From: Tepidibacillus decaturensis
Lineage (GTDB): Bacteria > Bacillota > Bacilli > Tepidibacillales > Tepidibacillaceae
Direction of reading: 5' to 3'
DNA length: 37,761 nt
NCBI RefSeq assembly: GCF_001561915.1
Contig: NZ_LSKU01000001.1
Location: 1,308,116-1,345,876, forward strand
Shown here: positions 10,903 to 15,687 of the stretch, piece by piece
Numbering within the stretch: the first letter of the stretch is position 1
Layout: the number at the start of each line of letters is the position of its first letter
The notes under the pieces: model-generated
Databases searched by the model: none
Seen by the model: only the letters and a program-made list of their open reading frames with translations
What the model was told of the DNA's origin: nothing
Translations under genes and position numbers: made by a program

Positions 10903-12153
10903 ATGAACACATCTAAAATTGGAAGTTCTCATTTAAAAACTTTAGTTTCTGGCATAGCAGCAATTTTTTTGGCCATTGCCATGGTGATGTTTCCCGATAC
11001 AGCCTTTGATGCTTCTTTACAAGGCTTAAGAATTTGGTGGGATATTATTTTCCCGGCATTATTACCTTTTTTTATTACATCGGAAGTTTTATTAGGATTT
11101 GGGGTCGTTCATTTTATGGGTGTTTTATTAGAACCTTTAATGAGACCATTATTTAATGTGCCAGGCGTAGGTGCCTTTGTTTTAGCCATGGGCTTTGCAT
11201 CAGGATATCCTATGGGAGCAAAACTCACAACTCGGTTAAGAGAGCAAAACATGATTACAAGAATAGAGGGAGAAAGGCTTGTGTCATTTACAAGTACCTC
11301 TGATCCACTTTTTCTCTTCGGTGCCGTTGCAATCGGCTTTTTTCATGATGTAGAATTAGGGGTTCTTATTGCACTTATTCACTACTCTTCAAGTATTCTT
11401 TTAGGTTTTATTATGCGTTTTCATGAAAGAAGCAATAAAGAGCGTATTATCATTCCAGACCGTTTACATAACCAAAGAAATATATTGGTTAAAGCTTTTA
11501 AGGCCATGCATCGGTCTAGATTAAATGATGGCCGAAAGTTAGGAAAATTACTCGGAGATGCTGTTACCTCATCCATACAAACCTTGTTAATGATCGGCGG
11601 ATTTATTATGGTATTTTCCGTTATTTTATCGATTTTGACACAAATTCAATTTACAGAAATCCTTACGAAGGGCATCACTCTGTTTTTACTCCCATTAGGC
11701 ATTGCACCTGAAATGTCCCAATCGATAATTTACGGTTTCTTTGAAGTCACATTAGGTGCAAAAACAGTGAGTGAAGCTTCTACAAGTATTCCAATGGTCG
11801 AAAAATTAGCGATTGTAAGCGGTATTGCTGCATGGAGTGGCATTTCTGTCCATGCTCAGATTGCTGCTATTCTGCAAAGGACAGATATTCGCTATACACC
11901 TTTTTTAATTGCAAGAATTCTTCACACACTTATCGCCTTTATGATTTCTTTTATCGTTTGGAAACCATTTCATCTTGAGCAAGCTGCAAATAGTTTGCCG
12001 ACATTTATATACCAATATTCTACAAGTCAGACCTCCATTGTTTCTCTTTGGAATACCTTTACCTACCAAAGCACATTACTATTATGGTTTCTTTTTATTT
12101 TGCTTCTGTTATCTTTCTTTTCTTATTCAATCAAACGCAAACACGGTAAATAG
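10903..12153 (+). CDS. ylbJ: Sporulation integral membrane protein YlbJ
   Basis: Polytopic membrane protein of 416 residues with nucleoside-transporter-like Gate repeats. Hydrophobic segments run through most of the chain, and the conserved MGFASGYPMGAKLTTRLRE segment is seen near residues 92-115. In B. subtilis ylbJ belongs to the mother-cell sigma-E regulon and is needed for heat-resistant spores; its transported substrate is unknown. The ATG at 10903 is preceded by GGAGGGATGCT. It is divergent from ylbK and converges on coaD, with a shared terminator at 12183-12210. I could not find a convincing sigma-E promoter upstream. Confidence 0.9.
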   Translation: MNTSKIGSSHLKTLVSGIAAIFLAIAMVMFPDTAFDASLQGLRIWWDIIFPALLPFFITSEVLLGFGVVHFMGVLLEPLMRPLFNVPGVGAFVLAMGFASGYPMGAKLTTRLREQNMITRIEGERLVSFTSTSDPLFLFGAVAIGFFHDVELGVLIALIHYSSSILLGFIMRFHERSNKERIIIPDRLHNQRNILVKAFKAMHRSRLNDGRKLGKLLGDAVTSSIQTLLMIGGFIMVFSVILSILTQIQFTEILTKGITLFLLPLGIAPEMSQSIIYGFFEVTLGAKTVSEASTSIPMVEKLAIVSGIAAWSGISVHAQIAAILQRTDIRYTPFLIARILHTLIAFMISFIVWKPFHLEQAANSLPTFIYQYSTSQTSIVSLWNTFTYQSTLLLWFLFILLLLSFFSYSIKRKHGK

Positions 12154-12731: not shown

Positions 12732-13285
12732 TTAGATTTCATTTTGAAAAATTGTGATTCCTGTATTTCCGTAAATCGCTTTTTTAATAACTCGAAAATG
12801 GTCAATTCGTTCAGCTAACTCTACTTTACTATCGTGTTCAGTAACAATAATACCATTAGAATTGATCAAAGTGTATTCATAAAATGTATGTAATAGTTTT
12901 TCTATCATATTTAATTTGTAAGGAGGGTCAAGAAAAACCATGTCAAAATGCACTTCTCTCTTATACAATACCTTTAAAGCTCTTTCAGCCTCATTGAGAT
13001 AAACTTCTGCTTGGCTAGAAAACCCAGTCGTTTCTAAATTTTGTTTGATCACTTCAATACTTTTACGATTACGATCTATAAAAATGGCGTGTTCCATTCC
13101 ACGGCTTAAAGCTTCGATACCTAGCCCACCTGTACCAGCAAATAAATCTAACACATCCCCCCATTTATATAGGGATAAATCATATTAAAAATGGATTCCT
13201 TTACCTTATCTGTAGTTGGTCTCGTATGGGTTCCTGGGACAGGCTTTAAGAATCTTCCCTTCGCTTGGCCAGCTATGACTCTCAT
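12732..13285 (-). CDS. rsmD: 16S rRNA (guanine-N2-)-methyltransferase RsmD, frameshifted in this sequence
   Basis: Methylates G966 (E. coli numbering) of 16S rRNA using S-adenosylmethionine. The gene is split. The first part starts at ATG 13285 with [20 protein letters not shown] and the family-typical [14 protein letters not shown], then hits a stop after about 45 codons. The rest, from about 13154 to 12732, carries the SAM-binding [18 protein letters not shown] and the catalytic DPPY motif. The two halves join perfectly if the six-G run (C run at 13157-13162 on the plus strand) had seven bases; this restores a normal 184-residue protein. Either a base is missing from the sequence or the gene is truly disrupted. 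It lies next to coaD and is divergent from the csfG-like RNA. Confidence 0.9.
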
Positions 13286-13328
13286 GAAATCACTCTTTCC
13301 TTATACAGTAAAAAAATTATTTTTTCAG

Positions 13329-13357
13329 GTATAATATTCCCATTTTCGGTAATCCTA
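13329..13357 (+). promoter_or_regulatory. Candidate forespore (sigma-F/sigma-G) promoter of csfG-like RNA
   Basis: GTATA at 13329-13333 matches the sigma-F/G -35 pattern. GGTAATCCTA at 13348-13357 fits the sigma-F -10 pattern in most positions, and its last seven bases (AATCCTA) fit the sigma-G cATnnTA pattern. Transcription would start close to 13364, the foot of the first hairpin. Inferred by eye from consensus. Confidence 0.55.
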
Positions 13358-13363
13358 GTATTA

Positions 13364-13508
13364 GCAATACAAATGGTATTGCAGACAACCGCGGAGAAGA
13401 CTTACGTTTCCCCATAAGCTCTTCCTCCGGTTTCTCCTCTCCCATTTCGTTGATGCACCTTGCGTGCATTAACCCCACAGAGGCTTTTTTTCTCTGTGGG
13501 ATTTTTTT
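13364..13508 (+). ncRNA. csfG: Probable CsfG-type sporulation small RNA
   Basis: No convincing protein is encoded here, but the plus strand is highly structured. There is a perfect 7-bp hairpin at 13364-13382 (GCAATAC/GTATTGC). A pyrimidine-rich single-stranded stretch at 13419-13444 contains CTTCCTCCGG and TTTCTCCTCTCCC, both complementary to ribosome-binding sites. A 6-bp hairpin lies at 13453-13469 (ATGCAC/GTGCAT), and a strong intrinsic terminator closes the unit. A forespore-like promoter lies just upstream. In B. subtilis the forespore RNA CsfG is, from memory, encoded next to ylbH (rsmD), the same neighbour as here, and is conserved in spore-forming Bacilli. Position, size of about 145 nt, C/U-rich loops and promoter type all agree. 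I could not align it to the family. Confidence 0.7.
13474..13508 (+). terminator. Terminator of the csfG-like RNA
   Basis: A 9-bp perfect stem, CCCACAGAG/CTCTGTGGG, with a T-rich loop is followed by A and seven T on the plus strand. Because neighbouring genes read the other way, it implies a plus-strand transcript ending here. Confidence 0.85.
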
Positions 13509-13514
13509 AATTGG

Positions 13515-13536
13515 AGAAAGTATAACTTTCTTTTCA
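13515..13536 (+). repeat. Post-terminator motif, copy 3
   Basis: GAAAGTATAACTTTCTTTTC starts 6 bp after the T-run of the csfG terminator. It is the only copy on the plus strand, and it is also the only copy that follows a plus-strand terminator. It continues into an AT-rich stretch containing TATAAT, shared with copy 5. Confidence 0.6.
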
Positions 13537-13559
13537 TTATATTATAATGGATAATGGGT

Positions 13560-13611
13560 CCACGCAAAAGTAATCGGAATACGCTTCGAAGGAGGTCGTC
13601 ACTTTTGTGGG
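13560..13611. repeat. Dispersed 52-bp hairpin repeat, copy A
   Basis: A near-palindromic element with arms CAAAAGT and ACTTTTGTGG and a loop of about 30 bases containing GAAGGAGGTCGTC. Copy B at 25807-25858 is its reverse complement with only a few substitutions. It begins 9 bp after the recG stop codon and may form the 3' end of the recG transcript. Coding potential is not apparent. Confidence 0.75.
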
Positions 13612-13620
13612 TTTTCTTTA

Positions 13621-15687
13621 CTAGCTATCAACTGTCTTTTTCTGAAACAAGCCTAATAATTCAATTTCTTTTTTTAACCTACTCCATTTTTCTTGTTTCC
13701 ATAGGTCTTCATTTTGAATCAATTGTTCTGCATCTTTTCTAGCAACTTCTAATGTACGGTAATCCTCTATCAGATCAGCAAGTTTAAAATTAGGTACTCC
13801 ACTTTGTTTTACACCAAAAAAGTCACCAGGCCCTCGTAATTCCAAATCTCTTCTCGCAATTTCAAAACCATCATTTGTTTCTATCATGACTTTCATCCGT
13901 TCTTTACCTGTTTCTGATTTAGGATCAGCCAACAAAATACAATAGGATTGTTCAGAACCTCTTCCTACTCTTCCTCTTAATTGGTGCAATTGGGCTAATC
14001 CAAATCTCTCTGCATCATAAATGACCATAAGCGTTGCATTAGGAACGTTAACTCCAACTTCTACCACAGTTGTTGAAACCAAGACTTGAATCTGATTCAT
14101 ACTGAATCCTAACATGATTTCATCTTTTTCTTTAGGATGCAATCTCCCATGCATAAGTCCTATTTGATATTGCGGGAAATGTTGAATAAGTGCCGCATGA
14201 ATGTCGATCGCATTTTGAACATCTAACTTATCTGATTCCTCAATTAAGGGGCAAATGACATAAGCTTGTCTACCTTGATTGATTTGTTTTTCCATAAAAT
14301 CTAAGACTCGCGGAAACGTATCCGGTTTTACCCAATAAGTCTCAATTTTCTTCCTACCTGCTGGGTATTCATCGATCGTAGAAACATCCATATCCCCAAA
14401 AGCGGTAATGGCTAATGTTCTAGGTATTGGTGTCGCTGTCATATAAAGAACATCAGGCGTCTTTTCATCCCCTTTTTTCCTTAATAAGGCCCTTTGTTCT
14501 ACTCCAAATCGGTGCTGTTCATCGGTAATCACCAAACCAAGTTTGTGAAATTGAACATCTTCTTGTATCAAAGCATGTGTACCCACTATGACATCGATCA
14601 TCCCCATTTGTAACTGCCCCAGCATTTGGTGCCGTTGTTTTTCTGTCAATTTACCTGTCAATAAGCCAATTTCAACACCAAAAGGGGTAAGAATCTCTTT
14701 TAATGAATCCAAATGTTGTTCAGCCAATATTTCTGTAGGAACCATTAACGCTCCTTGGTAGCCAGTTAAAAAATTTGCATATAAGGTAATGGCAGCCACA
14801 ACTGTTTTCCCAGACCCAACATCCCCCTGAAGTAATCGATTCATTGCATAGGATTGAGACATATCATGTAAAATTTCTTTTAACACCCTTTTTTGCGATT
14901 GAGTAAGCTCAAAAGGAAGGGTTTTGATCAACGGGATGAGTTGCTGCAGATCGATATTTCTTTCTATCCCTTCCCAATTTTCTCGGTTCATTTTTTTAAA
15001 AAGTTGAAGGCTTATTTGATAGAATAAAAGTTCATCATATACAAGTCTTCTTCGAGCAAGTTTTCCATCCTGAGTGTTTTTGGGAAAATGAATCGCTTGA
15101 TATGCCTCGCGTAACGTATACAATTTGTACTGATCGATGATATCCTGTGGAAGATATTCTTCGATTGCTAGGCCAAACTGTTGTAAGCTTTGCATCATGA
15201 TTTTTCGAAATCCCTGTTGATTCATATTTGTTGGTATGGTGTAGAAAGGTAAAAGATTCCCTTTTTTTGTACTAACCGCCCTGTCCAAAAACTCTGATTC
15301 ACTTACTGTGATTTGTAATCGATACTTATCCCACTTACCAGTTAGGAGAATTGGACGTCCTGCTTTCAATTGATTTTTCAAAAAAGCTCTGTTAAACCAA
15401 GTTGCAGTAATGACAAATTGGTCAACAACGACGCGAACAGATACTATATTTTTTTTATTTGGTAGTCGTTTTAATAAAGGGTCACTATAAATCTTCCCTT
15501 CTATCGTGACCTTATCCCCGTGTGAAACTTCTGTGATTTTTTTTACACCATAGTCTTCATAACGATAAGGAAAATATTGGAATAAATCTTTAACCGTACG
15601 TATACCCATACCTAAAAGATCATCTGCTTTTTGCTTTCCTATTCCTTTTACACCAACTACTTCTTGTTGTAATGGATCGATACTCAT
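13621..15687 (-). CDS. recG: ATP-dependent DNA helicase RecG
   Basis: Branch-migrating helicase that regresses stalled replication forks and processes Holliday junctions. The N-terminal helix-hairpin-helix/wedge region includes VGVKGIGKQKADDLLGMGI (residues 11-29). The Walker A motif is GDVGSGKTVVA, the Walker B DEQH box follows, and the C-terminal helicase motifs include QLRGRVGRG. The C-terminal RecG-specific GPGDFFGVKQSG is intact. Length 688 is normal for Bacilli. The start at 15687 overlaps the end of sdaAA by 4 bp, implying coupling. Confidence 0.97.
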   Translation of the reverse strand: MSIDPLQQEVVGVKGIGKQKADDLLGMGIRTVKDLFQYFPYRYEDYGVKKITEVSHGDKVTIEGKIYSDPLLKRLPNKKNIVSVRVVVDQFVITATWFNRAFLKNQLKAGRPILLTGKWDKYRLQITVSESEFLDRAVSTKKGNLLPFYTIPTNMNQQGFRKIMMQSLQQFGLAIEEYLPQDIIDQYKLYTLREAYQAIHFPKNTQDGKLARRRLVYDELLFYQISLQLFKKMNRENWEGIERNIDLQQLIPLIKTLPFELTQSQKRVLKEILHDMSQSYAMNRLLQGDVGSGKTVVAAITLYANFLTGYQGALMVPTEILAEQHLDSLKEILTPFGVEIGLLTGKLTEKQRHQMLGQLQMGMIDVIVGTHALIQEDVQFHKLGLVITDEQHRFGVEQRALLRKKGDEKTPDVLYMTATPIPRTLAITAFGDMDVSTIDEYPAGRKKIETYWVKPDTFPRVLDFMEKQINQGRQAYVICPLIEESDKLDVQNAIDIHAALIQHFPQYQIGLMHGRLHPKEKDEIMLGFSMNQIQVLVSTTVVEVGVNVPNATLMVIYDAERFGLAQLHQLRGRVGRGSEQSYCILLADPKSETGKERMKVMIETNDGFEIARRDLELRGPGDFFGVKQSGVPNFKLADLIEDYRTLEVARKDAEQLIQNEDLWKQEKWSRLKKEIELLGLFQKKTVDS

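Follow-up and report, generated by a model that had tools for sequence, protein, structure and literature searches.

CsfG (synonym S547) is a small RNA of Bacillus subtilis under sigma-F/sigma-G control (PMC8216469), and it contains three C-rich regions, as do RoxS and FsrA (PMC4409812). Disruption of a group of sporulation sRNAs that includes CsfG produced no obvious sporulation defect (PMC9147052), and papers from 2021–2022 report no known target for it (PMC8216469, PMC9147052). Northern analysis in B. subtilis detected a signal only from the reverse strand of the Rfam model of this locus, RF00516, and this signal was equated with CsfG (PMC3574147). Here we describe an element from a 37,761-nt stretch of the Tepidibacillus decaturensis genome (hereafter the window), which is almost certainly the orthologue of CsfG. 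It is a further copy of an already described family and no new kind of system. Taken as a whole, our explanation is that a plus-strand RNA of about 145 nt would be made in the forespore by sigma-F/sigma-G polymerase and would act in trans as a riboregulator, which we consider very probable.

Identification of the element relied on cmscan, in which RF00516 was the only Rfam family found in the whole window. The match lies on the minus strand at 13389–13511, spans the full model (1–122) and scores 77.8 bits against a gathering score of 50; the host has one copy. Other Rfam matches on the region were weak (NsiR1 at 30.3 bits, anti-hemB and others), all below their own gathering scores, and were set aside as chance or terminator likeness. 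An earlier note, made from the letters alone, had proposed a CsfG orthologue here, and the claim is borne out by the covariance match, synteny with rsmD, a forespore-type promoter, a terminator, conserved CU-rich blocks and a restriction to SpoIVA-bearing genomes. The parts it had listed are also present (Table 1): a plus-strand element with two perfect hairpins of 7 and 10 bp, a C/U-rich region, a terminator stem with seven T, which belongs to the sole terminator found within 13150–13750, and a promoter whose spacing is conserved in relatives. Its statement that all neighbouring genes read the other way holds for the adjacent rsmD, coaD and recG, but not for ylbJ. The host carries sporulation genes (SpoIVA, 5.1e-117; sigma-G, 508 bits), and its CoaD is 85% identical to that of genome G401. 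As a separate observation, rsmD has a frameshift near 13155–13165, at a run of six G, which leaves an N-terminal piece (13155–13285) and a C-terminal piece (12732–13154) in different frames, through either a sequencing error or a broken gene.

Table 1. Features of the csfG locus, in window coordinates.
Feature	Position	Strand	Basis and remarks
ylbJ	10903–12153	+	about 1.2 kb upstream
rsmD (ylbH), divergent neighbour	12732..13285	-	TIGR00095 matches both pieces
sigma-F/sigma-G type promoter	13329..13357	+	GTATA 13329–13333, 14 nt, GGTAATCCTA 13348–13357; sequence
csfG sRNA, about 145 nt	13364..13508	+	RF00516 match on opposite strand; putative 5′ end, from promoter
5′ hairpin GCAATAC/GTATTGC, perfect 7 bp	13364..13382	+	fold; outside Rfam model
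core hairpin	13383..13435	+	5′ arm GGAGAAG (13393–13399) masks CUUCCUCC (13421–13428); fold, consensus fold
C-rich region 1, UUUCCCC, hairpin loop	13407..13413	+	unpaired in fold and in mean over 65 Bacilli loci
CU-rich block, core-hairpin 3′ arm and linker	13419–13443	+	sequence
23-nt pyrimidine core CTTCCTCCGGTTTCTCCTCTCCC	13421..13443	+	C-rich regions 2 and 3
C-rich region 2, paired	13421–13428	+	unpaired probabilities
C-rich region 3, mostly single-stranded linker	13431–13443	+	unpaired probabilities
spacer hairpin TTGATGCAC/GTGCATTAA, 10 bp	13449..13473	+	fold
intrinsic terminator and T tail	13474..13508	+	CCCACAGAG/CTCTGTGGG 13474–13500, T7 13502–13508; fold
recG, other side, convergent with csfG	13621..15687	-	NF008165, 930 bits

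The strand of the RNA cannot be chosen from folding alone, as both strands fold equally well: the 145-nt plus strand reaches -53.8 kcal/mol against -28.1 ± 3.8 for shuffled sequences (z = -6.8), and the minus strand is equally good against its own shuffles (z = -6.9). We therefore compared loci, 132 of which were taken and 129 oriented by the core. A spacing peak between GNATA and ATNNTA appears at 18–19 nt on the csfG strand only (19 and 34 of the 129 loci, versus 0 and 2 at the same spacings on the opposite strand), and intrinsic terminators were found at 68 loci on the csfG strand, compared with a single locus for the opposite strand. The loci were retrieved by the RF00516 model or the core, a choice that does not bear on the results for synteny, promoter and terminators. 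In 51 Bacilli sequences, the 5′ hairpin pairs in 89% of cells, compared with 81% in shuffles, none of 1000 of which reached 89%. Read as plus, it contains 58 G-U versus 14 A-C cells, an excess expected where the RNA is the plus strand. Promoter, terminators and G-U tolerance each indicate that the RNA would be read from the plus strand, in agreement with the B. subtilis Northern.

Two readings of the minus strand have to be weighed against this. Rfam types RF00516 as a cis-regulatory leader, which would make the element a 5′ leader of rsmD; the minus-strand match and equal folding would fit, as would gene order, with rsmD downstream on that strand (that is, divergent from and upstream of csfG) in 120 of the 129 loci and coaD in 107. 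However, a structured RNA is expected to yield both the Rfam match and an equal fold on its complementary strand, the T-run terminators and forespore promoters sit on the plus strand, the G-U pairs favour the plus reading, and the Northern saw no leader RNA, detecting the opposite strand alone (PMC3574147). The comparison thus favours the plus strand, and a leader of rsmD is highly improbable. In the other reading the minus strand codes for a small protein, beginning MGKRKSSPRL after a perfect Shine–Dalgarno (SD) sequence, GGAGGAAGAGCTT, and an ATG start. A start codon, ATG or other, with a strong SD does occur in 57 of 71 Bacilli loci, and MGKRKSSPRL recurs, yet the frames range from 10 to 110 amino acids, are unrelated in sequence beyond the part conserved as RNA, and in other classes have a median length of 11 codons. 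What looks like an SD and a start codon is the anti-SD core in reverse complement. With frames so variable in length and sequence, this mini-ORF lacks conservation, and we rejected minus-strand coding, to which we give next to no credence.

Conservation of the plus-strand RNA centres on its pyrimidine core. Of the 129 loci, a sample enriched for core sequence by construction, 103 carry CTTCCTCCGGTTTCTCCTCTCCC without a change, and they span Bacilli and Clostridia. A wider consensus, TCCCCaTAAGcTCTTCCTCCGGTTTCTCCTCTCCC, stands out against variable flanks both in Bacilli and in other classes, which agrees with the earlier expectation that the CU-rich blocks would be kept in relatives, and paired and unpaired positions are conserved alike. 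With up to three mismatches allowed, 188 of the 398 phylum genomes carry the core, compared with 12 for a reversed control. Its presence follows sporulation: 183 of 336 SpoIVA-bearing genomes have it versus 5 of 62 lacking SpoIVA (Fisher p ~1e-12, a value that overstates independence since the species are related, with a negative set drawn in part from genomes remaining once the listed positives were removed). Three of these five genomes have incomplete assemblies (G074, G121, G284), and the other two, with three mismatches, are probably chance hits. Within the class, RF00516 matched 72 of 81 SpoIVA-positive and none of 20 SpoIVA-negative genomes. We inspected the rsmD upstream region in 25 genomes, finding an exact core in G058 and diverged copies in some; among SpoIVA-positive genomes without a match, such copies are present in G407, G003 and G035, and probably also in G006 and G411, so that the phylum-wide count is a lower bound. 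The G400 assembly has no rsmD.

One spore-forming clade, f4, appears to be without csfG through loss, as no csfG was seen upstream of rsmD in the f4 genomes inspected. The clade retains spoIVA, and could serve as a natural knock-out for finding the function of CsfG. One member, G169, lacks csfG and keeps spoIVA only as short, decayed pieces containing an internal stop (G169:C1:393093-393353); this lineage appears to have lost sporulation. We also observed that f4 (G169, G422, G437) and SpoIVA-negative genomes lack a TIGR04086 (YrzE-like) membrane protein; its presence closely tracks that of csfG, with a single fragmented assembly (G435) as the exception, on the basis of one clade. Separately, two assemblies have two exact or near-exact cores on separate contigs (L154 and L119 on G108:C122 and C147; G049:C4 and C18), possibly reflecting duplication or a mixed assembly.

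As to mechanism, sigma-F or sigma-G RNA polymerase would read plus-strand csfG in the forespore, as the promoter sequence and its comparison across loci suggest, and the product would most likely be a trans-acting riboregulator. Its exposed tracts, the UUUCCCC loop and the linker UUUCUCCUCUCCC, may base-pair with several mRNAs at their G-rich ribosome-binding sites, blocking translation or triggering decay, and the third tract, CUUCCUCC, might be freed when the core hairpin opens. Both exposed tracts are unpaired in the predicted fold of Bacilli, where GGAGAAG in the 5′ arm sequesters CUUCCUCC; the predicted folds of other classes leave this block more accessible than in Bacilli. The earlier suggestion that CU-rich loops act on ribosome-binding sites is plausible, but of the two blocks it named, CUUCCUCC is predicted to be paired in Bacilli. 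Pairing of the linker with GGGAGAGGAGAAA was computed at -26.9 kcal/mol. The analogy of RoxS and FsrA makes SD pairing the likeliest mechanism, and we infer it with somewhat better than even confidence.

Since the core is more conserved than SD pairing alone requires, it may have a protein partner or a single, highly conserved target. The core might chiefly be a binding site for Hfq or another forespore RNA-binding protein, which CsfG would titrate or guide: CsfG co-immunoprecipitates with Hfq and drops modestly without hfq (PMC3574147), the host has an hfq gene, and conservation extends over paired and unpaired positions alike. However, the C-rich tracts of RoxS, the best-studied sRNA of such design, pair with mRNAs (PMC4409812), and regulation by sRNAs in B. 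subtilis seems not to need Hfq (PMC12456014); we regard a mainly protein-binding role as unlikely, if worth keeping in mind. It is a good deal less plausible that CsfG is a phylum-wide mimic of the anti-SD end of 16S rRNA, competing at many G-rich ribosome-binding sites rather than at few targets, which would help to shut down forespore translation before dormancy. An action in cis is also conceivable, as csfG lies antisense between recG and rsmD, which run in the same direction, and could pair with read-through transcripts of the two. An antisense RNA matches its target perfectly whatever the sequence, with no need for conservation; the near invariance of 23 nt amid diverging flanks makes the antisense role very unlikely.

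For the favoured role, pairing in trans with ribosome-binding sites, we searched ten genomes for the pattern GGAGAGGAG-N(2–11)-ATG and read the places listed, in G335, G022 and G357 a part of them. Among the places read, no convincing conserved target emerged, and ribosome-binding sites with GGAGAGGAG vary between genomes. Orthologues recurred in two cases, a secreted protein (G000, G399) and the TIGR04086 (yrzE-like) membrane protein (two Bacillus-like genomes). The yrzE-like gene was rejected as a target, its complementary site not being kept in 30 relatives. The secreted proteins (L221, G000:C1:598700-600800; L234, G399:C8:21300-23300) are 94% identical, the housekeeping proteins of the two genera differing more, and their start is preceded by GGAGAGGAGAAATG, which is perfectly complementary to the CsfG linker over 12 nt. 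This protein is possibly a target or a recent transfer.

In all, CsfG is a very strongly conserved sRNA of endospore formers. The comparison adds a 23-nt core shared without change by Bacilli and Clostridia, a 5′ hairpin that covaries and lies beyond the Rfam model, and the apparent loss of csfG in the spore-forming f4 clade. The main use of our result is that the strand and type given by Rfam for RF00516 mislead. The ‘ylbH leader’ of Rfam covers the same locus and the same sequence, and its whole model is matched here; but Rfam models the other strand, treats it as a cis-regulatory leader and leaves out the 5′ hairpin. RoxS/RsaE and FsrA are likewise small structured sRNAs whose exposed C-rich tracts target SD sequences, but they differ in locus, sequence and control (ResD and Fur, respectively); the likeness drawn here is one of design. 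The closest relative is CsfG of B. subtilis (S547; Marchais et al. 2011), which likewise adjoins ylbH/rsmD on the opposite strand and shares the sigma-F/G promoter, three C-rich regions, terminator, core sequence and a host with sporulation genes. The two differ in location, the B. subtilis gene lying between ylbG and ylbH and the present one between rsmD and recG, and not in kind.
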